The notes under the pieces are model-generated. The model made no database searches. It was not told the origin of the DNA and saw nothing but the letters and a program-made list of their open reading frames with translations. A DNA stretch of 64,000 nt from the NCBI GenBank assembly GCA_015178975.1, contig WHVD01000185.1, positions 1-64,000 of the forward strand, given 5' to 3'. Below, piece after piece: positions 8,498 through 59,837 of this stretch (positions within the stretch are counted from its first letter, which is position 1; each line of letters opens with the position of its first letter). Source of the DNA: Hysterangium stoloniferum (lineage: Eukaryota > Basidiomycota > Agaricomycetes > Hysterangiales > Hysterangiaceae). The position numbers and the translations under genes are program-made.

Positions 8498-9525
8498 TAA
8501 GGGCAAAGCACACTTTGTACTGTATAGATATATTGCTGACTACATGACCTTTACGTACCCAAATATGTACCTAATTCAATCTCAGAATCAAACATCTGAG
8601 ACAACATGGGAATCTTGCAGCTTCTACATATGGCTCACAGACTCCAACAACATCTAGTTTTAGTTTCTACCAACTCAACCTCTGCTGGCATACACCTGTC
8701 ATCTAAACAAACTTCTCTAGGTAGGCTATAGCTAGTAGAATGTCAATGCACTCTCAGTGATAGGCTGGTCCACTTATTCAGATGCATTGCACTGAGGTTC
8801 TCGTGTCTGATAGCCTATCACAGACACATCATCAAGATGGAATGCTATACTCATAAAGTCACAGACAACGCAAGTCTCCTCTGGTTCAGGAATATCACAT
8901 TCATTCCAAGAGTAAGGAATAAAAGAATATGGACTCCACTATTTCCAATCTCATGTCACTGTGGACACACTGGTGATGGCAATGAGGAGGCAGCTCAGAG
9001 GTTTACCAATAACTACATTCACTATGATCAATATCATAATTGGTCTATATTGGTTGTCAATATGAAGGAAGGGTTAGTAACCTTGGAAATAAGCCATTCA
9101 TTTGTGATGAATGTGATATGATTCAGATTCAACTGTCATTGTGACCTCAATCAGAACTGTATGTGAACTTGTTTTGATATTTGGATAACCTCTTACATAC
9201 ATATTAAAATAACTCCTCTATCTATATATACATGTATAAATAGTATTTGCAATCCAATCTGAATATGGTATTACATCACATTGCATTTAAACTTACAGTA
9301 CTTCTCTCTACAGAAAAACCACCATTCCCTTTCTATTTTTAGCACATTGAATAACAACTTTACTTATGGATGACAGAAGCTCTAAAAATGTCAAATACTA
9401 TGTGTGAAATGCTCTATATTGTGTTATATGTTCTTAAAATGCAAATTATATATACAGAAACTCTGTTTATTTGCATTAAAATATGAGATTCTTGAGTGTC
9501 TGGTTCACTGCCTTCACTAAATTCT
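8498..9525 (+). pseudogene. Degenerate PHD-finger segment between Tc1-I and G1
   Basis: At 8885-9135 the sequence is a diverged copy of the PHD-finger gene at 25930-26400. The frame reads CHCGHTGDGN...YIHYDQYHNWS, where the second cysteine pair of the finger (CDEC in the other copy) has become YDQY and the frame then breaks. The piece at 8880-8930 (about 50 bp) recurs at 25041-25092 in the same orientation, whereas the finger itself is inverted there. The remainder, 8498-8880 and 9150-9525, is AT-rich and shows no gene or repeat I can name. Confidence 0.5.
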
Positions 9526-10313
9526 TGTTAAGGGTACATACACGGCGGGTTTCCAGAGAAACCTGCGGGAAATCTGGTAGGACTTGGCTTCAGCTTATAG
9601 GCTGCGCCCTTGTGAGATCGTGTTGTCCAATTTCAAACAGGTGGACAGGAAACCCAGGGAGTCCGGGTGGAGTTCATGGGTTGAGGGGTCGTAGGTCGGA
9701 GGTTGAGGGGTCATAGGTCAGAGGTCATGGGTCAAGAGGTCAGGGAGTCGACATAAATAAGTCAGAGGTTGAGAGATAGATGCATCGGAGCCAGAGCTGT
9801 GTAATTCAAAGAGGAGTTTAGAGCAGAAAATGTACTAGATTACTGGGGAGAATCTAAGCTGATTTTCTGACTGGATTGTATGTACAACATCTGCCAGACT
9901 ATATAGACTGTGGAATAAATAACATACCAAATCCAGTAATAATGAAAATGAAACTAGGAAACATAAAACGAGATAAGTAAACACCAAATTTGGTGTTAGG
10001 AATGGAACAAGACAGAGCGGAGTCCGAATTGTGACAGGTCATTTGACTAAAATGGGAATGGGGCTCAGTTAGAGGGATGACAGGTTTTCTGAGCGGGGTC
10101 CAGTGACTGATGCATGGGATGGGGTTGGACATGGACAGGGACAGAGTCCAGCAGGTATTCTGGTGACTGATACACAATGTAACGAAGTTGAACATGGACA
10201 AGTCTGACGTATGGAGTCTGGTGGGAATTCCAGTAAACTGACAATTGGTGCATATAGGGCACAGGTGTGTATAGGTTAGTGCCCAGAGTCTGGCAGGAAT
10301 TCTGGTTGTAACA
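9526..10313 (-). repeat. 3' LTR of G1 (family B)
   Basis: 788 bp, TGTTAAGGG...GTTGTAACA on the plus strand (sense of the element is minus). It contains the TATA-like CTATATAGTC and the downstream AGTCAGAAAAT string of the family. The purine-rich tract that primes plus-strand DNA lies just inside: GTACCCTCCCTTTAT on plus (10314-10328) is AAAGGGAGGGTAC on minus. Confidence 0.93.
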
Positions 10314-10470: not shown

Positions 10471-10751
10471 AAATTGAAAAAATGAATTTTCTCTTCTTTA
10501 TTACCCCCATCATCACTATGGGACCAAAACCAACGCCGTGAAGACCAATGCCAACTGTCAGGCCCCCCATAGGCAACCAATACTGGGTGTTAGGGTAGGT
10601 ACATGGTGGGTTTCTGGAGAAACCCGTGGGATATCCAGTAGGACTTGGCTTCAGCTTATAGGCTGCACCCTCGCGAGATTGTGTTGTCCAATTTCAGACA
10701 GGCAGACAGAAATCCCAGGCAGTCTGGGTGGGGTTTGTGGGTTGAGGGGTC

Positions 10752-10870
10752 GTAGGTCGGAGGTCATGGGTTGAGAGGTCATGGGTTGAGAGGTCATGGG
10801 TTGAGAGGTCATGGGTTGAGAGGTCATGGGTTGAGAGGTCATGGGTTGAGAGGTCATGGGTTGAGAGGTT
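10752..10870 (+). repeat. 15-bp tandem repeat in LTR-B
   Basis: About seven to eight tandem copies of GAGGTCATGGGTTGA. Other LTR-B copies have only one to three related units (GGTCGTAGGTCGGAGGTC and similar) at this place, so the array expanded in this copy by slippage. Confidence 0.9.
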
Positions 10871-11300
10871 GTGAGTTGAGATAGATAAGAGAGATAGATG
10901 TGCCAGAGCCTGTGGGCTCCAACTAGCATGAGCGGTGTAATTCAAGTAGGAGTTTAGAGTGGAAAATGTATTAGATTACTGGGGGGGAATCTAAGCCGAT
11001 TTTCTGACTGGATTGTATGTACAACATCTGCCAGACTATATAGACCATGGAATGAATGACATACCAAATCCAGTAATAATGAAACAAAACTAGCAAAACA
11101 TAAAATGGGAATAGTAAACACCAAATTTGGTGTTAGGAATGGGATGGAATGGAGCGGAGTCCAAATCGTGACAAATCATAAACCATAATGGGAAACAGAG
11201 TGGGAGCAGAGTCCAAATCGTGACAGGTCATTTGACTAAAATGGGAACGGGGCTCAGTTAGAGGCTTGACAGGTATTCTGAGCGGGGTCCAGTGACTGAT

Positions 11301-13381
11301 TGTAAGGTATCCAGCTATTTACTCTCTCAAATAGTTAACAAATGTTGACATGGCAAGGGATTCAAGAAATAAACAAATAAAGGTCCAGTAATTTAAATAC
11401 TTATAGATTAATTAGCTGTGCTATTAAGCTTAAACAACTAAGTCAATATTTGTTTGGTCTCTTGACAAATTCAGATGAACTTGTAGTGACATACTCTACG
11501 AAAGTTAAGTTCTCCTTGAGAATAAAGGTTCGGGAGCTGAATGTATGTGCAATAAGTCGGTGGAAACTTGTCGTAAGCCTTCGCTTTCTTGTAGCCTTTT
11601 AGTTTACTATTTATAAAGATTTAACAAGCTGTTAAATAATTTATAAATAGAGAGATTGTCCGAGAGTCGAATATCCAAGCGTTTATTTAAAGATCAATTA
11701 ACTGTGCTGTTAAAATGGGCTCTTGAATAATCTAAACGGGCAGGGATTTCAGTAATAAGAATTTAGATTTACTTAAGTGATTAGTAAGCCTAAAGGTTTC
11801 CGGGAAGCTGAGGGAACTTAGATGAATTAGCTAAGTTCAAGAGTGCTGACAAAGAGTTCAAGATTCTGCAAGTGTAGGTGCTTGCAGTTAGTATATCAGA
11901 CTAAGGCTATTATTGTCCTTAGGATGATTAGATAAGCTTATGAGCTGGTGCTGTTGATAGTAGTAAAGTAAAGTTGATTTTATTCAAGATTTAGGCCTCC
12001 TTTTATACATGTAGAGAGTTCTGCTTAATAATATCTAAATAACTAATTAGGAAACTTTTAGAAGCTTCCAAGAAGTTTCCATAATTCCACTATGATATCA
12101 TACTCCTCACCTGACTTGAAGATCTGAGCCAGTCAAGTCATAAAATAAGTCCGGGATGTGTTAGGATACACACACAGGCCGGGTTTCTGGAGAAACCCGC
12201 GGGATATCCAGTAGGACTTGGCTTCAGCTTATAGGCTGCGCCCTTGCTAGATCGTGTTGTCCAATTTCAAACAGGCGGACGGGAATCCCGGGGAGTCCAG
12301 GCGGGGTTCGTGGGTCGTAAGTCGTAGGTTGTAGGTTGTGAGTCATGAGTCGAGTTGGTTGAGAGAGATAGAATGCGCCGGAGCCCGTGGGCTCTGACTA
12401 GTGCGAGCGGTCTGATGAGAGTAGGGTTTTAGAGAGGAAAATGCTATTAGATTACTGGGGGAATCTAAGCTAATTTTCTGACTGGATTGTATGTACAACA
12501 TCTGCCCGTTTATATAGACCATGGAGTGAATGACATACTAATCCGGTAATAATGAAAACGAAACTAACAAAACATAAACGGGAATAGTAAATACCAAATT
12601 TGGTGTTAGGAACAGAACGGAACGGAGCGGAGTCCGAATCGTGACAAAGCATAACCCATAATGGGAAACAGAGCGGGAGCGGAGTCCTAATTGTGACAGG
12701 TCATTTGACTAAAACAGGAACGGGGCTCGATTAGAGTGGTGATGGGATTCTGAGCAGGATCCGGTGACTGATGCGTGGGATGAAGACAGACATAGACAGA
12801 GACGGAGTCTGGGGGAAGTCCGGTGACTGATATGTGTTGTAATGAGGTTGAACATAACAAGTCTTGACGTAACGGAGTCCGGGCGGGAAATCCTATAAAC
12901 AGACAATTGGTGCTTGTAGCGCGTGGGGGCGTATGGGTTAGTGCCTGGAGTCTGGCGGGATTGTCCGGTCGTAACAGGATGGCTGAAAGTGGAAGGAAAA
13001 TAGGCCAGTGGCCGAAACGGAAATAAACCCGGCTGGGTGGCTGTGAAAACTATTCACGATGATTTGTGACCATGTCATCATGTCGTCGTCACATGATGTC
13101 ATGTGATCACGCGATAATAATGCGCATATATCTAGTAATATAATGTAATAAAAACCCAGTTGCCCAAAACTAGATAACCCCAGCTTTATTATAATTATAT
13201 TTTGACCGCTGTAGGCTTCAATTATGTAATGTGATGTCATTTGAAGCCTCGAGTATGTGAAGTTAAAAGGAAATAGCCATATTCTTTGAATAATAAATAA
13301 AATAAAATAAAATAAATAGAAATAGAAATAAATCTGGGAAAATTAAGGGAAAATTCATGAAGATATACTGGATACATCACA
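11301..13381 (+). mobile_element. Solo LTR, family C (copy 1), TSD CTGAT
   Basis: TGTAAGGTATCC...GGATACATCACA with CTGAT at 11296-11300 and 13382-13386. It carries a nested LTR-B at 12159-12976, leaving about 1.26 kb, the same length as copy 2 at 39315-40573, whose sequence it follows closely. Confidence 0.93.
12159..12976 (+). mobile_element. Solo LTR-B nested in LTR-C, TSD GGATG
   Basis: TGTTAGGATACAC...GGTCGTAACA with GGATG at 12154-12158 and 12977-12981. This is level four of the nest G1 > LTR-B > LTR-C > LTR-B, so family B was active both before and after family C inserted here. Confidence 0.93.
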
Positions 13382-15763
13382 CTGATGTGTGGGACAGAGT
13401 CAGACATAGACAGGGACGGAGTCTGGTGGGTATTCTGGTGACTGATACACAATGTAATGAGGTTGAATGTAGACAAGTCTGATGTATGGAGTCCAGCGGG
13501 AATTCCAGTAAACTGACAATTGGTGCGTATAGGGTGCATAAGTTAGTGCCCGGAGTCCAGCGGGAATTCTGGTCATAACACCAGGTGCCTCTCACCACTG
13601 CCCAAATTTTGGCACAGTGGGAGGAACAGCGACGTCAACGAGAAGAGGCGGAGAGGGAGGCGAAGGAGGTCGAGGAGGCATTAGACAGAGAATACCAGGT
13701 GGCATTGGCCACAGAGAAAGCAGCTGAGGAGAAAAGGAAGAAAGATGAGGAGGAGGCTGTGCGGGTTGCCATGGAGAAAGCCCAGGTGGCTGTGGAGAGG
13801 GCCACAGTTGCTGCAGGCAAAGTAAGTCCCATAGATATGACTTGTCATTTTAACTGATTTGGTATTTTCAGCACAAGGTGACAGAGGTTGAATTGGAGTT
13901 TCAGGGGGAGCTGGAGAGCCCCCAAAAGGTAAGTCTCAGGTCTGTGGGACATCTGGGGAGCTAACCAAATCAACAGAAGGCAAGGAAAGTGGCACCAGTC
14001 CACCTACCAACACAGAATGACCTGTGGTGTTCCAGTTGTAATGACTAGAACACAGAAAGTCCAGGCGGGGACCAGGCTGCTTCCAGTGTGCACACCTCAA
14101 AGCGAGGTGCTCACTGGTTCACGAGCAGCCCATGGGTCCATGGCGTGGGACATCAGCGGGTCAGATAGGATTTCTGGTTTGGATGAGGTTTTGGGATGGA
14201 TCACTGAGGGCATAGAGGCCCAAAACAAGTTGCTCTGGAAGAGCAACAAGGTGCAGATTGTGGTGGTTAATGAACTCTGCAGGCTCCGCTTGGAGTATTT
14301 CAAGTTCCTGGTGGAGTTCAGTGGCTATGTTTATGAGGAGCCACAGATCGGGAGTTCCAAAGATGCTGGTTCAGATGAGGATGGGATGCCCGTGGAGATA
14401 GTGGAGCTTTCTGAGGAGATGAATGAGGTGGAGAAAGCTGAGGTGGGGAAAAAGGACAGCCCCATAAATGTAGATTGAATAAAATAAATTTTGATAATAA
14501 ATTTTCTTGAAAATAAAAGTAAAGCTTGAAAAAACATAAGAATCAAAGTCCGCAGAAAATCCACTTAAGGACTTGAAAGACATGTCAGAACCTGTAAAGC
14601 AAAGAGAGACATAGGGTGACAGGGAATAATGAAAATGAGTCCAAACGTAACACAGGGTCTGCAGAGTGTGGTCAGAGAGATGATAGTGGTCCAGGTTTGA
14701 GTGGGTAAGCTGTATGAAAGTCAGTAACGATTTCTGTGGCATTACCAAGTTCCATGGCCAAAATCCATGAAGTCTCTTCATCAGTGCCCTCGTAACCCAC
14801 CCACTTGACCAAGTAAAGCAGTTTACAAGTGCATCAATGCTTATCAATTTTCAAATCTAAAATTTGTGAGATTTCAAACTTGGGTTTTCCATCAATAATG
14901 ACCAGAGGGGGCGGAGATTGCACGCAATCCAGAATAGTGTTAGCAGTACAAGGTTCTAACATAGAAACATGAAATACTGTGTACCACGCACATGCTATCC
15001 GGAAGCTGTAGAGTCCAGGAAACTGAACCTACTTGTGCAATTATTTCAAATGGACCTAAATATTTTTCAGCAAGCTTTTTTGATGGATGGGTAGTCCGAA
15101 AGAGTTGAGCTTTGACAAAAACACGATTGCCAATCTTGAAGTTGGGTGGCAGAACCCGGTGTTTGTCCGCTGAAAGTTGATATTGCTCTTGGGCGGACTT
15201 TATTGCAGTCCAGAGTTCCTCATGGAGCTCATGGAGGTCCATGGTGAACTCTTGAGCACAGGCGGAGGTGAGGTTTTGTTCTGGATGTACTGTAATATTT
15301 GGATTATATCCTTTATTTGCAAAGAATGGGGAAACACCAGTAGTGGCCAAAGGTGCATTGTTGTAAGCAAATTCTGCAAGTGGTAACAAGGATTTCCAAT
15401 TGTCCTGTTGATAATTACAATATATGTGGAGATATTGTTCCAATGTCTGATTGATGCATTTGGTTTGTCCATCGCCTTCTGGGTGGTGTCTGGATGTGAA
15501 ATGTAGTTTCATGTCCAAGGATTTCCCGAGGGATCTAAAAAAGTGAGATACGAACTCTGATCCTCAGTTGGAAGTTACATGGGATGGAACTCCATGCTTG
15601 GAAAATATGTGGATAATAAAAAGTTTTGCTAACTGCATGGATGTAATTGTATCATATGTAGGGATGAATATACCTTGTTTTGAGAATCTGTCAACAATAA
15701 CTAGAATGGCAGAAAAACCTTTGGAGTCCAGTAGGTGTTCAATGAAATCCATAGAGATAGAAT

Positions 15764-29556: not shown

Positions 29557-30650
29557 CAGTAAGCAAAAAAAGGGTTGCAATGTTCAGTAAATTTTAACTC
29601 AAATGCTTATAACTCCAGAAATAAATTAGCTAAAATTAGGAAAAAATATAAGTTAGAAAGCCCTGTTTCTGAACTTTGACATGATAAGCATGTTTGTTCA
29701 AAAATATTCACTCATTGTTGAGATATTAAATATTTTGTACAGGAGTATCATTGAAACCCTTTTTTTGCTTTTGTTCTGTATATGAAAGGGCAGGTTGTAC
29801 TGGTGTTTCTGATCCATTGTTAGATTGTAATTGATTTTGTAATCATGTGACATGTTCAAAACATTCAACACATGACAAACAGACCACAACAGTCTTGTTG
29901 ATTCCAGCATACAGCCTCCTCTATTTCTCAATGCAAATACATCCTCTCCCTCTTGGATTCTGGTCATTCTGCTCACCAGATTTCATCATCCACTAGTCTA
30001 CACATCAGTACCATCTCCAGACTTCACAAAAAACACCATCCTTACCTGAAGAAGTCCACTGGTGGACATCCTTCCAAGCTTTCTGAGGTTGATAGTCACT
30101 ATACCCAGTATCTCATCACCTCAGGGAAGGCTGAAAATGCCTCTCAGATCACCCAGATCCTTCAGAACACTACCAACCAGTCTCTCATATCCCAGACAAC
30201 TCATAACCCTGAAGTTAGCTGATATGAAAGCTGTGGTAAAGGCCAAGAAGCCCTTCCTTACCAAGAGGCATAGGAAGGAGAGGATGGATTTTGCTCTGGC
30301 TCATTTGGATTGGATTATAGAGGACTGGAAGACTGTTGTATGGTCTGATGAGACCAAAATGAATAGGCTGGGGTCAGATGGGAAGAGGTGGGCTTGGAAG
30401 AAGGCAGAGGAGGGTCTGAGTGATAGGCTTGTGAAGGAGACTGTAACGTTTGGGGGTGGATCTCTGATGATGTGGGGCTACATGCTGTGGGAGGGAGTTG
30501 GGTATGTATACAAGATTGATAGGAGGATGGATGGAGAGTTATATACCAATATTCTGCAAGATGAACTCCAGAGAAGGCAAGAATCCCTCCACTATCATCT
30601 TCCAGCAGGATAATGATCCCAAGCACAAGTCCAAGAAAGCTACAGGTCTC
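29557..30650 (+). mobile_element. Tc1-II element, left half (cut by the inversion)
   Basis: Starts CAGTAAGCAAAAAAAGGG after TA (29555-29556). The first ~225 bp are the long TIR and themselves end in an inverted copy (CCCTTTTTTTGCTTTT at about 29757-29772). The transposase 5' part follows on plus. Homology to Tc1 stops near 30645-30650, in the codons just after QQDNDPKHKSKKATG, where chromovirus G3 sequence begins. The missing right half is at 37606-38078 in opposite orientation. Confidence 0.88.
29950..30650 (+). pseudogene. Tc1-II transposase, N-terminal two thirds
   Basis: A helix-turn-helix segment (GHSAHQISSSTSLHISTISR), GGHPSKLSEVDSHYTQYL, then after a frameshift near 30200 KKPFLTKRHRKERMDFA, first catalytic Asp in VVWSDETKMNRLGSDG, GGGSLMMWGYMLWEGVGYVY, a second frameshift near 30570 and the second Asp in IIFQQDNDPKH. 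The third acidic block lies in the inverted right half (SPDLNPIEYLWDHLKK, 38075-38030 minus). Confidence 0.82.
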
Positions 30651-53183: not shown

Positions 53184-53738
53184 GCAACCCCACAGACTCC
53201 ATGTGGGTTGGGGGTTGCATTATCTCTCCACACATTCATGAGTTTACCTGTCTCAACACATCCACTTTTGAACTCTGACTTGTTTTTTATTAAACTTATG
53301 TCTAATATGATCCCAAAATTCATTTTTTCAGCACTCTTAGATTCTGGCTCAACTCATTGTTTTTTAGATACAGAATTCATGCAAAAAAATCTGTTGTCAA
53401 CTTATCCAATAAATCCGGTCAGACTCCAACTTTTCGATGGCACAAGCAATTCGGTTATCACCCAAGCTTGCAATTTATCCATCTGGTTCCCATGTGGAAC
53501 ATCTCAGTTGGTCACTTTCTATGTGACCCAGTTAGACTCAAGTTGCTCGGTTGTCCTAGGACATAACTGGCTTACCTTATACAATCCATTGATTGACTGG
53601 GTATCAAACAGTATAACTTTCCAGACACCTGCAGTGCCCGAGATAACTGTATCTGACATGGCCTCCATGGCATCCATGGCCTTCCTGGCACCTGTGGCCT
53701 CAGTGGCCCCTGTGATCCCTACAGCACCCATGGCTTCC
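53184..53738 (+). pseudogene. G2 aspartic protease
   Basis: Retropepsin motif [16 protein letters not shown], then [19 protein letters not shown] as in G1. The Ala/Met/Pro linker is cut by LTR-D copy 3 at 53739; the linker resumes at 54300 (SPEPTAPPSISLINAAAFI). Confidence 0.87.
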
Positions 53739-54299
53739 TGTTAAGTGCCGTGTCGGGAACTTATTCCGGAACTATCGGAAGTCACCGGAAGTCGGGAACT
53801 CGTAGATAGGGTCAGGACGTCGGCTTCAGCTTATGTGCTGCGCCTCTACGCAAACGCTCGATGTCCTTAATTTCAGAAGTAAAATTGAAGATGGAAGATA
53901 TGGATATTCAGAGTTCCGAAGAGTTCCGAATATCGAGCGTACAGAAAGACGGGAGGAGGAATAAGAAACTAAGTCGATATCAGATCTAAAGTAAAGTACA
54001 AATTCGTGGAAACTAATATAGTCTACTCGTTATTGTACTACAAACTAAGACCATAATAAGACGGAAACGGAAATGATCTCAAAATGGAAATACAATAAGA
54101 CATATTAGGGAGACAATATTCCGAAATGGGAATACAACAAACAAACGAGTGTGTACTTGTCAACGGACAAATTACCAAATGCAGAACAAGGGAGAATACG
54201 GATGATACGGTAACTATGATGTTCCGTAGTTGGAGATCAGAAGTCGGAAGTCAGATATCAGATATCAGGTATTGAAACATCCAGGAACGGGTTGTAACA
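53739..54299 (+). mobile_element. Solo LTR, family D (copy 3), TSD CTTCC
   Basis: 561 bp, TGTTAAGTGCCGTGTCGGG...GGGTTGTAACA with CTTCC at 53734-53738 and 54300-54304. It is rich in CG dinucleotides compared with D copy 2, suggesting it is younger. Confidence 0.95.
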
Positions 54300-55633
54300 C
54301 TTCCCCAGAACCCACGGCACCTCCATCTATTTCTCTTATTAATGCTGCAGCATTTATTAGGGCTACAAATATGGATGGATCCCAGGTGTTCACTATCAAT
54401 TTAAAAATTGATGAAGCAACCGGTCATTTTTCAACTCTGGCATCTGAGCAAACTGCTGATCTAGAAGGCATCCTGGGGAAATACCATGATTTTGCAGACA
54501 TTTTCAGTAAGCATAAAGCTGACTGGCTTCCACCCCACAGAGAGTACAACTTAAAAATCGACCTTGAAGAAGGTGCCCAGCCATTCCTTGGACATATTTA
54601 CCCACTTTCCTCTATGGAACTTTCCACAATCTGGGATTTCCTGGATAAACATCTGTCCATAGGTTTTATCAGACCCTTGAAGGCTCCTTATGGAGCACCT
54701 GTTCTGTTTGTCAAGAAGAAGGATGGATCCCTTAGACTATGTGTTGATTTCAGAGGACTCAATGCTGTCACAAAAAAGGATAAGTATCCACTCCCACTTA
54801 TATCTGACATGCTTGACATATGTGTCATTGTTTACTTGGACAACATTCTTATCTACTCTGAGGATCCCGTGGTACATGACAAACAAGTCCATGAAGTTCT
54901 CCAAAGACTCAGACAACATGGTTTATTCGCAAATGGTAAAAAATGTACTTTTGACACAGACTCCGTGGAATATCTGGGTTTCATAATGGGACCCAATGGA
55001 CTCCATATGGATGAAACCAAAGTACAAGTCATTAAAGATTGGCTGGAACCCAGAAAAGTCAAAGATATACAGTCTTTCCTCGGCTTTGCCAATTTTTACC
55101 AATGGTTTATCCGTGGATATTCCAAAATCACAGTCCCCCTTACTCATCTTACTCACAAGGGCACTCTGTGGACTTTTGATGATAAGTGTCAAAAAGCTTT
55201 CAATCTTTTAAAAGATTCTTTTTCTTCAGCTCCACTTCTGTCACATTGGAAACTGGACTTTCCACTCATTGTTGAGATAGATGCCTTGGACTACACACTT
55301 GGAGCCATTCTGTCTATCCAGGACTCAAATGGAGAAGTCCACCCTGTGGCTTTTCTGTCCCAGTCTTTCACCGGAGCAGAGCTCAATTATGACATTCATG
55401 ACAAGGAACTCCTAGCAATTTTTGCAGCTTTTAAATCGTGGCAACACTATTTGGAAGGTTTGGGAATTCCGATTGACATTGTAACCGATCACAAGAAGCT
55501 GGAATACTTTTCAACCACGAAACTTTTAACCCACCAGCAGGCCTGCTGGTCCGAATACCTATCAGCCTTCAATAGGATTATCCATTTTCGACCCAGTCAC
55601 CTTGGCAGCAAATCCAATGCTTTAACTAGATGA
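54300..55633 (+). pseudogene. G2 RT and RNase H with an internal in-frame RT deletion
   Basis: A long open frame (the stretch around it is 467 codons) with GFIRPLKAPYGAPVLFVKKK and [20 protein letters not shown]. It then jumps from LPLISDML directly to DICVIVYLDNILIYSEDPVV. Compared with G1 about 75 residues are missing without a frame change, including the first catalytic Asp block, and the active-site box is YLDN instead of YLDD. RNase H is well kept (FPLIVEIDALDYTLGAILS, ELNYDIHDKELLAI, DIVTDHKKLEY). The enzyme cannot work although the frame is open. Confidence 0.9.
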
Positions 55634-57245
55634 TGGGACATCTATTCTAAAGAGGGGAGCAATGACTATGCCACAGTAAACCCGCATAACTTGAAACCCA
55701 TCTTCACAAATCAGCAGCTTACCATATCAGTCCACATGACTTTCCTCATCCATCCCATCATCTGTGGAATTATCATTATGGATATTGAGAAGTTACATCA
55801 AGATATTCTATTGGCAATTCCACTAGACCCAATAACTAAAGCACACCTTGACAACCCCATGGACCCCAGCCAACCCTGGTGGTCTCTCAACCAGCATGGT
55901 TTCATTAGACTTGACAATCACATATACATACTGGACTCCACCTCAGGATCCTCCAGTACAAACATGACCATCCACTCTCGGGACATTTTGGGTTCAACAA
56001 AACTCTATCAATTATAACAAGAGAATATACTTGGCCCGGACTCCAAGACTTCATCAAGCACTATTGTAAATGTTGCAGTACTTGTCCACGCTCTAAATCA
56101 CAGCATCACAAGCCATACAGCCTTCTGAAACAACTCCCGGTACCGGACCACCCGTGGAATTCAATCTCTATGGATTTCATTGAACGCCTACTGGACTCTG
56201 ATAGCTTTTCCCCCATACTAGTTGTTGTTGACAGATTCTCAAAACAAGGTATATTCATTCCTATACATGATACCATTATGTCCATGCAGTTAGCAAAACT
56301 TTTTATTATCCACATATTTTCCAAGCATGGAGTTCCATCCCACATAACTTCTGATTGAGGATCAGAGTTTGTATCTCACTTCTTTAGATCCCTCAGGAAA
56401 TCCTTGGACATGAAGTTACACTTCACATCTGGATATCACCCAGAAGCCAACAGACAAACTGAATGTGTCAATCAGACATTGGAACAATATCTCCACATAT
56501 ACATATTGCAACTATCAACAGGACAATTGGAAATCCCTGTTACCACTTGCAGAATTTGCTTACAACAATGCACCTTTGGCCACTACTGGTGTTTCCCCAT
56601 TCTTTGCAAATAAAGGATATAATCCAAATATTACAGTACACCCAGAATGGAATCTTGCCTCTGCCCGCACTCAAGAGTTCATCATGGACCTCCATGAGCT
56701 CCATGAGGAACCTTGGACTGCAATAATATCTGCCCAAGAGCAATATCAGTGTTCAGTGGACAAAAACCAGATTCTGCCACCGAACTTCAAAATTGGTGAT
56801 TGTGTTTTTGTCAAAGCTCAATTCTTTTGGACTACCTGTCCATCAAAGAAACTTGCTGAAAAATATTTAGGTCCATTTGAGTTAATAGCACAAGTAGGTT
56901 CAGTTTCATGGACCCTATGGCTTCTGGATAGCATGCACGCAGTACACCCAGTATTTCATGTTTCTATGCTAGAGCCGTGTACTGCTAACACTATCCCAGA
57001 TCATGTGCAATCTCCGCCTCCTCCTCATTATTGATGGAGAACCTGAGTTTGAAATCTCACAAATTTTAGACTCAAAAATAGATAAGCATTGATGCACTTG
57101 TAAACTGCTTTACTTGGTCAAGTGGGTAGGTTACGAGGGCACAGATGAAGAGACTTCATGGATTTTGGCCACAGAACTCAGTAATGCCCCAGAGATCATC
57201 ACTGACTTTCACACAGTATACCCACTCAAATCTGGACCACTATCC
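55634..57245 (+). pseudogene. G2 integrase and chromodomain
   Basis: HHCC domain with a frameshift near 55950 (HYCKCCSTCPRSKS), core SISMDFIERLLDSDSF (first Asp), HITSD*GSEFVSHF (second Asp kept, next Arg codon is TGA, the same stop as in G1) and NRQTECVNQTLEQ (Glu kept). A second frameshift is near 56510. The GPF-like region is KYLGPFELIAQVGSVSW and the chromodomain LYLVKWVGYEGTDEETSWI lies at about 57110-57170 in another frame after a TGA. Confidence 0.86.
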
Positions 57246-57477
57246 TCTCTCTAGCCACAATCCGTGGACCCCGTGTATATGTTGGATTCACTTCATTTTT
57301 TCCCTGTCACCCTATGTCTCTCTTTGCTTTTACAGGTTTTCTGACATGCCTTCAAGTCTTAGTGGATCTTCCCACAGGCCTTTACACTTTTTATTTTATT
57401 TTAAAAAAAAAAAATATTATTACTTTTCAATCTACATTTATGGGGCTATGTTTCTGCCCAACTTCTTTAGGCTCCTT

Positions 57478-58376
57478 TCAGAGTTCTTCCACCTCCTTGG
57501 GTACCCCATCCTCATCCTCACTGGGTTCCTTGGAACTCCTGATCTGCAGTTCTGCATATACATACCTGCCATACTCCGCCAAGAATGCCCAGAACTCCCT
57601 GTGGAGTCCCTGGAGCATCTCCAGCACAGTTCCCTGCACCTGGTTGCTCTCTTCTATCAACTGGTTCTGGGCCTCTATGCCCATGGCTATCTGTCCCAAA
57701 ACATCCTCCAAGCCCCCCAGCCTGTCTGAACCACCCACATCCCATGCCATGGACCCTGTGGGCTCATGAACCAATGAGCACCTCACTTTGAGGTGCACGC
57801 ATGGCCAACAGCCCAGTCCCCACCCAGACTTCTGATGACAGTCAGTGTTCTGGATGTTACAACCAGAGCACCATGGATCGTCTTTTTCCTCCAAGCGAAC
57901 TGGAGCCATTTTCCTTGCCTTCTGTTGATGTGGTCAGTCCCCGGAAAACCCCACGGACTGAGACTTACCTTTTGAGGGCTCTCCAGCTCCCCCTCAGACT
58001 CCGACTCAGCCTCTACTGCTTTGCACTAAGAGCAGAGTCAGTCAAACTGACTATGCAAATTATTGGGACTTACCTTTCCCATGGCAACTGTGGCCCTCTC
58101 CACAGCTGCCTTGGCACATTCTGCAGCAACCTGCACCACCTTCTCATCTCTTTTCCTCTCCTCCTTGGCCTCCTTCTCCGCAACCAGTGCTGCCTAATAA
58201 TCCCTCTCCAAGTCCTCCTCAGCCTCTTTGGCCTTTTTTTCCACTTCCTCCCTTTGTCGACACTGCTCATCCCGCTGCACCAAGATTTGGGCAGCAGTGA
58301 GCGGAGCCCAATATGGGGAGCCTGTGGAGGGCCTGGCAGTAGGCATTGGCCTGCGAGGTGTTGGTTTTGGACTCAT
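57478..58376 (-). pseudogene. Antisense accessory gene of G2: coiled coil + Zn2Cys6-type cysteine pattern
   Basis: Best copy. Exon 1 is 58376-58074, intron 58073-58026 (48 nt), exon 2 58025-57969, intron 57968-57922 (47 nt), exon 3 57921-57478; both introns GTAAGT...AG, phase 0. 267 codons, interrupted only by TAG at 58194-58196. Domains: basic Pro-rich start (MSPKPTPRRPMPTARP), Glu/Lys coiled coil (residues ~35-100), acidic exon 2 (EAESESEGELESPQK), then a cluster with spacing CX2CX6CX9CX2CX6C (CSGC ... CWPCVHLKVRC), which fits the fungal Zn2Cys6 DNA-binding pattern CX2CX6CX5-12CX2CX6-8C. After it comes a helical C-terminal part shared with G1 (SMAWDVGGSDRLGGLEDVLG) and an acidic tail. Role unknown; a DNA- or chromatin-binding regulator of the element is an inference. 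Confidence 0.78.
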
Positions 58377-58425
58377 AATGATGGGGAAAATAAGAAATAG
58401 AAGAAATTTTATTTTTTCAATTTTT

Positions 58426-58432
58426 TATATAG
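58426..58432 (-). promoter_or_regulatory. TATA box of the antisense accessory gene in G2
   Basis: On minus CCTATATAAAAAATTGAAAAA, about 50 bp upstream of the ATG at 58376; matched by the G1 box at 10463-10470. Confidence 0.65.
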
Positions 58433-58673
58433 GCTCATCACGAACCTTACCTTCCAGATCATGTGACTCTTTGACACATACATGTAACTGACATGACTCT
58501 CTGACACATGCATGTTGTTAGATTTGGAAATACAATATCTATTAGAATGTCCAAGCTGTTATAAGTCCCTAGTTGGCATCAGTCCAGATGTGACTGTATA
58601 AGTCCCAAGGTAGCATCAGAAGGACTTATATAGAATATGTATATATAATCCATAATATCTCACTAGACCAATA

Positions 58674-58747
58674 GGTCCAGTAGCTCAGTGGTTAAGAGCA
58701 CTGCTTATATAAAGCCAGAGGTCCTTGGTTCAATCCCAGGCTGGGTC
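58674..58747 (+). ncRNA. tRNA-like unit in TRIM LTR1
   Basis: 74 nt that fold as a tRNA: acceptor GGTCCAG/CTGGGTC (two wobble pairs), D arm GCTC...GAGC, T arm CTTGG-TTCAATC-CCAGG. Pol III A box TAGCTCAGTGGTTAAGAGC and B box GGTTCAATCCC are present. The anticodon arm (CTGCTTATATAAAGCCAG) pairs poorly and has an 8-nt loop, so it is tRNA-like rather than a confident functional tRNA. Confidence 0.7.
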
Positions 58748-58994
58748 AATTCTTTTCTATACCTTTAACAGGTTATGGGCCCCGTCAGCGCTGCTGCATA
58801 TAGGGTGAATAGATTAGATATTGATTTCAGGGGAAGTGTTAGATTTGGAAATACAATATCTATTAGAATGTCCAAGCTGTTATAAGTCCCTAGTTGGCAT
58901 CAGTCCAGATGTGACTGTATAAGTCCCAAGGTAGCATCAGAAGGACTTATATAGAATATGTATATATAATCCATAATATCTCACTAGACCAATA

Positions 58995-59068
58995 GGTCCA
59001 GTAGCTCAGTGGTTAAGAGCACTGCTTATATAAAGCCAGAGGTCCTTGGTTCAATCCCAGGCTGGGTC
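58995..59068 (+). ncRNA. tRNA-like unit in TRIM LTR2
   Basis: Identical to 58674-58747, shifted by 321 bp, as expected for the second LTR. Confidence 0.7.
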
Positions 59069-59837
59069 AATTCTTTTCTATACCTTTAACACATGTAACC
59101 AACAAACTTTATCAAGTTCTAGAGCCTCTTTGGGACTTCAGTATAAAGGGAGGGTACTGTTACAACTGGAAAACCTGCCGGACTCTGGGCACTACCCTAT
59201 GGACACCCACACCCTTTACGCACTAGTTATCAGTTAATCAGAATACCCGCTGGGACCCAGATGTCAGACCTGTCCATGCCTGACCTTCGTTATCTCATGT
59301 ACCAGTCACCAGAATACCTGCCCAGACCCTGCACACATCATCCCTGTCTATCCCCGACCCTGTCCCATGTGTCAGTCACCAGACTCCACTCAGAAAATCC
59401 ATCAGCTCTCTAACTGAGCCCCATTCCTGTTATGGTCAAATGACCTGACACGTTTCAGACTCCGCTCCCACCCCATTCCCATTATGTCTAACGACCTGTC
59501 ACACTTCAGACTCCGCTCCACTCCATTCTGTTCCTAATACCAATTTGGTGTTTACTTATCTCATTTCATGATTACTAGTTTGGATTTCATTATTACTGGA
59601 TTTGGTATGACATACATTCCACAGTCTATATAGTCTGGCAGATGTTGTACATACAATCCAGTCAGAAAATCAGCTTAGATTCCCCCCAGTAATCTCATTA
59701 TATTTCCACTCTATCCCTCTCTTTGAAACACACCTGTTATGACTGGAATACCTGCCAGACTCCAGGCACTACTCTATCTGCACCTGCACCCTTCATGCAC
59801 CAGTTATCAGTTTACCAGAATACCTGCTGGAACCCAG

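Follow-up and report, generated by a model that had tools for sequence, protein, structure and literature searches.

An intron-bearing antisense gene under purifying selection in a chromovirus family of Hysterangium stoloniferum

Introduction

Does a gene that lies antisense to gag and pol at the 3' end of a fungal retrotransposon encode a protein that serves the element, and how could such a gene keep its introns? This question is raised by a stretch of 64,000 nucleotides (nt) from Hysterangium stoloniferum (positions 1 to 64,000 of contig WHVD01000185.1, assembly GCA_015178975.1; the whole stretch is hereafter called the window), a basidiomycete described as ectomycorrhizal (PMC7550596), in which two copies of one such gene, referred to as G1 and G2, are found. 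Comparison with further copies in the same genome shows that the gene encodes an antisense protein under purifying selection, on this strand, and that its host is a chromovirus, that is, a chromodomain Ty3/Gypsy element between long terminal repeats (LTRs).

Antisense accessory genes have been described in LTR retrotransposons, still without a functional explanation. In this context, a single genome offers hundreds of copies of graded age, together with a plausible domain activity and short promoter and LTR motifs, and the role of such genes for retrotransposons becomes directly testable in a fungus.

Structure of the gene and its place in the element

The structure of the gene is given here for the G2 copy, with the following features.

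58074..58376, minus strand: exon 1, 303 nt, with the ATG at 58376; a short basic N-terminus, then a long charged helical segment
58026..58073, minus strand: intron 1, 48 nt, GTAAGT...TTAG, with a branch-like CTGAC
57969..58025, minus strand: exon 2, 57 nt, 19 codons, acidic, with SPQK at its end
57922..57968, minus strand: intron 2, 47 nt, GTAAGT...CAG, with a branch-like CTGAC
57427..57921, minus strand: exon 3, starting with a KKARK-type basic stretch, followed by the six-cysteine cluster, a long helix and an acidic tail, and ending in the conserved SPINVD
57778..57870, minus strand: C-X2-C-X6-C-X9-C-X2-C-X6-C cluster, within exon 3

Both introns are in phase 0. When the minus strand was re-read and set against the other copies, the exon borders, intron phases and cysteine spacing that a sequence-only reading of the window had assigned to G2 were found to be correct. 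The frame of 267 codons that it had also described is broken by an in-frame TAG at codon 61 of exon 1 (58196-58194), and the TGA taken as its end (57480-57478) is premature, the family frame being about 17 codons longer and closing at the TGA 57429-57427. The G2 copy is dead.

On the opposite strand, the parts of the element that carries G2 were recognised as listed below.

53208..53744, plus strand: protease piece of pol (RVP_2, Pfam)
54230..55633, plus strand: reverse transcriptase and RNase H piece of pol (Pfam)
56465..57034, plus strand: SH3_Tf2-1 piece of pol (Pfam)
57035..57251, plus strand: chromodomain end of pol, its start approximate and its end taken from the match, about 180 nt from the antisense family stop
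59151..59733, minus strand (the strand of the gene): sequence of the element's 3'-terminal LTR

The Pfam domains RVP_2, RVT_1, RT_RNaseH and SH3_Tf2-1 are thus matched in the window element, and gag and Chromo in the young copy L055 (L-numbers denote individual genomic copies), the latter at 30.4 bits against a cut-off of 25.1. Of two young elements, one has separate gag (436 residues) and pol (1250 residues) frames, the other a single frame of 1289 residues. The two LTRs of an element are 99.3% identical in L055 and 97.3% in L057.

The arrangement recurs throughout the family. Among 51 loci with enough flanking sequence, four of which overlap others, an antisense chromodomain match was present in 41, and in the other ten none was seen within the stretch examined. 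Most of these 41 matches (32) lie 170-283 nt past the 3' end of the gene, eight stand at other distances and one on the opposite side. Upstream on the gene strand, LTR-like sequence was found in 45 of the 51 loci, and in 25 of the first 30 loci an LTR ends about 200 base pairs (bp) before the ATG; in the window element, the gap between gene and LTR holds a later insertion with two 255-bp repeats (58516-59091). From the positions of chromodomain and LTR it follows that the antisense gene meets pol tail-to-tail and has its start close to the inner edge of the 3' LTR. The claim of an antisense, intron-bearing accessory gene between pol and the 3' LTR is thereby upheld, and two of the three criteria for what has been termed aORF-3R, an antisense open reading frame (ORF) in this place, namely position and conservation in multiple copies, describe the present gene; on the third, transcription from a promoter of its own, conserved TATA-like and upstream blocks were observed.

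Copies in the genome

The genome searched was the 111-Mb assembly of 554 contigs. At the DNA level at least 43 matching stretches were found, some being two parts of one copy; the window's own is among them and the others are 77-85% identical to it. At the protein level there were at least 248 matches, and a 17-mer from the C-terminal part of the gene occurs at 516 genomic places with at most one mismatch, compared to none for its control. Given such genome-wide matches, the antisense gene pattern is far beyond chance. Stretches of intron length stand at both expected places in all of the first 30 loci, a few having a damaged splice site or a shortened intron. Besides, a young group comprises at least 39 further copies that are 95-97% alike to one member, 40 of the 742 candidates having been scored.

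For the comparison of copies, 73 loci were gathered, 13 were dropped for incomplete coverage and repeats were removed, leaving 55 distinct copies. The frame is open throughout in seven of these, although one of the seven, L026, ends outside the family frame; a lack of open-frame homologues, which the sequence-only reading would have taken as a refutation, was thus not found, open copies being present in this genome.

The ratio of observed to expected CpG was determined in ten copies (L056, L055, L061, L062, L063, L017, L022, L001, L005 and L002): it is 0.07-0.19 in five old copies, 0.27 and 0.52 in two intermediate ones and 0.88-0.96 in three young ones, pointing to a strong, methylation-like decay of CpG on transposons in this fungus. 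Many Arg-to-Gln, Arg-to-Trp and Arg-to-stop differences between copies fit CpG loss in old copies.

Outside the assembly, the search of protein sequences with the L017 product gave no match at E<=0.001 among 2268 candidates, and the profile of exon 3 gave a single match at E<=0.01 among 1659 candidates. This match, P0001, is itself a public H. stoloniferum protein of 201 residues, a copy of the antisense gene whose gene model omits the first cysteine triad. In IMG/VR, none of 13 pattern matches was confirmed as a relative.

Introns, coding strand and selection

Across the copies, GT-AG borders are found at 52 of 54 first introns and at 50 of 55 second introns, and a branch-like motif is present in intron 1 of 52 copies and in intron 2 of 51. 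The intron lengths fall in all three residues modulo 3, and exon 2 measures 57 nt in 48 of the 55 copies. In L069 a long T-run lies within intron 1 and the exon ends beside it are unchanged; in L036 intron 1 is missing together with part of exon 1. A clean intron loss, which would be a sign of retro-processing, was sought in the 55 copies and none was seen.

The pattern of differences between copies is that of a coding sequence. In exons 1 and 3, third codon positions have a diversity of about 0.37 and the first two positions one of 0.18-0.22; in exon 2 the corresponding values are 0.31 and 0.13-0.15, and in the introns, splice sites excepted, 0.30-0.35. The median pairwise ratio of nonsynonymous to synonymous substitution rates (dN/dS) is 0.233 in the gene frame (1470 of 1485 pairs), compared to 0.338 to 1.252 in the five other frames, and the gene frame has the fewest stops of the six (5.5 per 1000 codons, against 11-47). 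For the chromodomain end of pol, handled alike in 34 copies, dN/dS is 0.271 (536 of 561 pairs). The sequence-only reading would have regarded a ratio near 1 from the oldest node as a refutation; the listed pairs of stop-free copies with dS above 0.6 give 0.15-0.31, in its favour.

The same is reflected in the age of the changes. Those confined to a single copy are spread evenly over codon positions 1, 2 and 3 (132, 132 and 130), for changes shared by two to four copies the counts are 83, 70 and 109, and from five copies upwards they are 135, 122 and 272. Such a combination of even singletons and shared changes rich in position 3 is what is expected from dead copies of constrained lineages. On a tree of the copies, changes per site on internal branches amount to 1.22, 1.24 and 2.76 for codon positions 1, 2 and 3 and to 2.51 for introns; on terminal branches the figures are 2.92, 2.79 and 4.43, and 3.93 for introns.

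Three observations speak against so simple a picture. Most singleton changes are transversions (270 of 394), so that misaligned stretches probably contribute to them; the terminal branches keep a third-position bias and are therefore not purely neutral; and the opposite-strand frame that has its third positions in common with the gene frame (offset 2) also shows a low ratio, 0.338. Taken together, the ratio of 0.233, the excess of change at position 3 and the preserved GT-AG borders nevertheless bear out the proposal that this is a genuine coding gene under purifying selection.

The protein and the zinc-cluster question

The seven open copies would encode proteins of 282-295 residues. Their N-terminus is short and basic and leads into a long helical segment with many charges; the acidic exon 2 and a KKARK-like stretch precede the six cysteines, after which come another long helix, an acidic tail and finally a conserved C-terminal end. 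The six cysteines are conserved in 98, 96, 98, 95, 100 and 91% of the 55 copies, against a mean of 69% for exon 3.

The binuclear Zn2Cys6 clusters of fungi obey the rule C-X2-C-X6-C-X5-12-C-X2-C-X6-8-C, and carry basic residues in the first CX2CX6C. The spacing of the antisense protein lies within this rule and is identical to that of LEU3; its first triad, CSGCNDxNTEC, is not basic, and a basic LKxR stands in the second triad instead, in departure from the basic-residue part of the definition. With the products of exon 3, Zn_clus (PF00172) is matched by 21 of 23 at E<=10 (best E 4.1e-4), the next family, Thioredoxin_4, by three of 23. In the PDB, a search by single sequence gave no match; a profile search aligned LEU3 (PDB 2er8, E 0.36) over all six cysteines with the same spacing, LEU3 being the sole PDB match over the cysteines. 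In a single-sequence AlphaFold2 model, residues 66-129, which form the helix behind the cluster, are the only part predicted with confidence.

Several results count against a Zn2Cys6 identity or do not bear it out. The Zn_clus scores shown remain under the cut-off of 21 bits (L017 17.3, the window 15.5, L062 14.1, L061 10.4), and the L056 product had no Zn_clus match in Pfam. When four products were halved, four of the eight pieces matched Zn_clus, namely the two L017 pieces, the first L062 piece and the second one from the window, in swapped order: the first triad resembles the second half of the profile and the second triad its first half. The first half-piece of the window matches the unrelated DUF5773 instead. 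The best PDB profile matches are talin helices (E 0.043 and 0.17), above LEU3, and in the AlphaFold2 model the predicted local distance difference test (pLDDT) is below 50 over residues 1-64, cysteines included; a Foldseek search of this model against the PDB returned no fold match, and the model is uninformative at the cluster. As to the zinc-cluster pattern claimed by the sequence-only reading, the spacing thus stands and the family membership is not established, with shown scores of 10.4-17.3 bits against 21 and swapped triads. A Zn2Cys6 identity of the antisense protein is therefore suggestive only. That it might be a rearranged zinc cluster, its order possibly cut from tandem clusters of the host, is a lead, not a demonstration.

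A scan of the genome with PF00172 gave 52 matches, all over the cut-off, none of which was recognised at a place of the antisense gene. As an observation apart, some host genes seem to encode zinc clusters in tandem, as at L079 (G000:C56:44300-46300) and similarly on C115, C209 and C309, an arrangement that is unusual and recurs at several places of the genome.

Promoter and LTR motifs

Upstream of the G2 start codon, two motifs are found.

58421..58431, minus strand: TATA-like box TATATAAAAAA, in a region conserved among 35 copies
58442..58460, minus strand: conserved 19-mer GATCTGGAAGGTAAGGTTC, upstream of the TATA box

The 19-mer GATCTGGAAGGTAAGGTTC occurs at 696 genomic places with at most two mismatches, compared to nine for its reversed control. 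The promoter region also contains a 27-nt direct repeat with one CGG per copy, and the young LTR of L055 (about 777-1597) contains 34 CGG and 16 CCG, with repeated words of the type CGGAGTCCG. In one young LTR, CGG-N3-CCG occurs five times, 0.38 being expected, which makes this word a possible target of the antisense protein. Against such a role, a count of five was reached for some type and spacing in 22 of 1000 shuffles, the test was post hoc and concerned a single LTR, and CGGAGT is found inside the element too, beyond the LTR.

Proposed function and alternative explanations

A conserved accessory gene of a chromodomain Ty3/Gypsy family, spliced by the host, whose product would act in trans as a nuclear DNA-binding regulator of the element, is the explanation favoured here, and it is given about an even chance of being right. 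Such a regulator is the simplest explanation because it brings together the selection, the promoter-like sequence, a basic stretch like those serving nuclear entry, helices fit for pairing and a zinc-cluster-like domain. More precisely, a promoter on the inner side of the 3' LTR and close to it would drive transcription in the direction opposite to gag-pol, the host would splice the transcript and the messenger would be translated; the protein would then re-enter the nucleus, pair with itself and bind DNA. Its action on the family of elements would be in trans, and what it most likely sets is the transcription driven by the CGG-rich LTRs, by its own promoter or by both. The introns persist because the genomic RNA is the complementary strand, so that the template of reverse transcription is not spliced at them. 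An intron-bearing gene can in this way pass many rounds of retrotransposition simply by its opposite orientation, and the two introns would mark the expression strand beyond doubt once RNA is sequenced.

A bolder version is more doubtful. In it, a gene of the zinc-cluster type would have been taken in, reversed and with its introns, and would have become a spliced, promoter-driven transcription factor that binds CGG-N3-CCG in the LTRs and controls the whole family in trans; it would form an autoregulatory antisense arm with a logic like that of HBZ, the antisense gene of human T-cell leukaemia virus type 1 (HTLV-1), but of independent origin and built on a rearranged Zn2Cys6 cluster.

The same gene could also encode a protein that acts on RNA or on the particle, through Rev-like export, by assisting the nucleocapsid or by holding down copy number in a dominant-negative manner, its cysteines forming a structural zinc fold. 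This is a possible, if somewhat doubtful, reading. It accords with the formal Zn2Cys6 membership that was not reached, with the basic residues in the second triad and with an exon 1 that, in young copies, is an Arg/Glu-rich helical stretch, and several kinds of retroviral accessory protein have been discussed as models for antisense ORFs in the available text of PMC7264820; against it, Zn_clus is by far the commonest Pfam match and LEU3 alone was aligned over the cysteines. That the antisense transcript rather than a protein matters, by pairing with genomic RNA and feeding double-stranded-RNA silencing or by promoter interference, is unlikely, given that the amino acids themselves are selected, as seen from the excess at position 3, the dN/dS of 0.233 and a frame kept despite varying intron lengths. 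The promoter blocks are strongly conserved, the predicted transcript and the genomic RNA would overlap over a kilobase at the 3' end of the latter, and such a role has been proposed for plant antisense ORFs (PMC7264820); a transcript effect may thus exist in addition to the protein.

An origin as a captured host gene, carried as a passenger that does nothing for the element, is quite improbable. The introns do suggest capture from DNA or from antisense RNA, and the host has ordinary zinc-cluster genes, some in tandem; yet none of the 51 loci examined was recognised as a free host copy, and the constraint is common to many lineages and similar to that on the end of pol. Least probable by far is coding on the sense strand, for instance by an extra env-like ORF of which the antisense frame would be a shadow. 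In its favour, long sense ORFs cover the gene, both that of the window and those of young copies, the opposite offset 2 has its median dN/dS of 0.338, and several young copies have an almost open frame at the opposite offset 0. In the 14 copies whose gene frame is free of stops, a set chosen by that very frame, offset 2 nevertheless contains two to five stops per copy, and over the 55 copies it has 14.9 stops per 1000 codons against 5.5; offset 0 has a dN/dS of 0.886 and zero to five stops in the 14 copies (none in three of them). Changes of intron length would moreover break a sense frame, and the splice sites and branch motifs, together with a TATA box and an AATAAA-rich 3' end recognised by eye, point to the antisense strand. 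After the six-frame comparison of stops and dN/dS, sense-strand coding was disfavoured.

The G1 copy and other contents of the window

The second copy in the window, G1, is organised as follows.

10518..14478, plus strand: whole extent of G1, with an insertion at about 10587-13583 that splits its exon 1
13822-13871, plus strand: intron 1 of G1
13872-13928, plus strand: exon 2 of G1
13929-13976, plus strand: intron 2 of G1
13977-14478, plus strand: exon 3 of G1

These intron coordinates were placed by eye, the lengths being 50 and 48 nt in the copy alignment. The insertion in exon 1 is of roughly 3 kb and has LTR-like ends, and G1 is a pseudogene with stops and frameshifts as well, more heavily damaged than G2. 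That G1 and G2 are the same gene, as had been noticed from the sequence alone, holds for the two common introns and the C-terminal part; that both copies are broken had been overlooked.

An LTR family of 800 bp (TGTTA...TAACA by eye) is present at 9519-10313 and at several other places of the window, partly in reverse orientation, and includes the insertion with LTR-like ends within exon 1 of G1. Between the antisense gene G2 and its LTR, the two 255-bp direct repeats, identical to each other, occupy 58516-58770 and 58837-59091; by eye, each appears to contain a stretch resembling a tRNA and is possibly a short interspersed element (SINE). Finally, a piece of a Tc3-type transposase (HTH_Tnp_Tc3_2) lies at 30062-30613 on the plus strand.

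Comparison with known systems

The sequence-only reading had known of no named system like this one, apart from antisense ORFs in some plant Ty3/Gypsy elements, but precedents do exist. In maize Grande, rice RIRE2, Silene Retand, bean PvRetro13 and the fungal Boty, an accessory gene running antisense occupies the space between pol and the 3' LTR (PMC7264820), and the gene brtn of the Boty-like elements of Botrytis cinerea is mentioned in further sources (PMC4227169, PMC8365987, PMC5987419). Boty resembles the present family as a fungal Ty3/Gypsy element with a chromodomain (PMC4227169), and in carrying, after pol and before the 3' LTR, an additional gene on the strand opposite to gag-pol (PMC7264820). 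It differs in its ascomycete host, and the accessible descriptions mention no cysteine cluster or introns; the name brtn-106 suggests a product of about 106 residues. The protein searches with the L017 product and the exon-3 profile, of limited sensitivity, returned no Botrytis protein, BRTN being compared by its description only.

In Retand, the antisense gene for TRP28 (PF04195) is present in 97% of clusters and, like the present gene, has been given a suggested DNA-binding and regulatory role (PMC11963269). Unlike the present family, Retand elements are plant non-chromoviruses with a different domain, and the word intron is absent from the main text of that source (PMC11963269). The gene gene23 of Grande and the genes of RIRE2 and PvRetro13 are likewise antisense accessory genes, gene23 having its own upstream promoter and a nuclear product; these are plant elements, most of the genes show no clear similarity to known proteins, and no zinc-cluster motif is reported for them in the accessible text (PMC7264820). 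Group I introns, another kind of mobile element, can carry antisense homing-endonuclease genes with spliceosomal introns (PMC9548176), element and protein being altogether different from those of the present family. In the literature that could be searched, from which subscription journals were mostly missing, no intron-bearing or zinc-cluster-like antisense gene of a fungal LTR element was found, and in the main text of a survey of fungal LTR elements the words antisense and zinc are absent (PMC3248453).

Compared to the fungal Zn2Cys6 regulators (PF00172; LEU3, PDB 2er8), the present protein has the six cysteines, the spacing of LEU3 and a helix after the cluster in common, and differs in the sub-cut-off scores shown, in the basic residues of its second triad and in being borne by a retrotransposon. 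HBZ, for its part, is spliced and is a basic leucine zipper (bZIP) protein; it differs from the present gene in its vertebrate retrovirus, its bZIP domain and its promoter within the 3' LTR. As an antisense gene of a retroelement encoding a nuclear regulator, HBZ, which is named in PMC11963269, is nonetheless similar.

In the light of the plant and Boty precedents, the antisense accessory gene as such is therefore already known; relative to the searchable literature, the two introns, the zinc-cluster-like motif and the measured selection are unreported for a fungal element, and it is in these that the Hysterangium family adds to the systems compared above.
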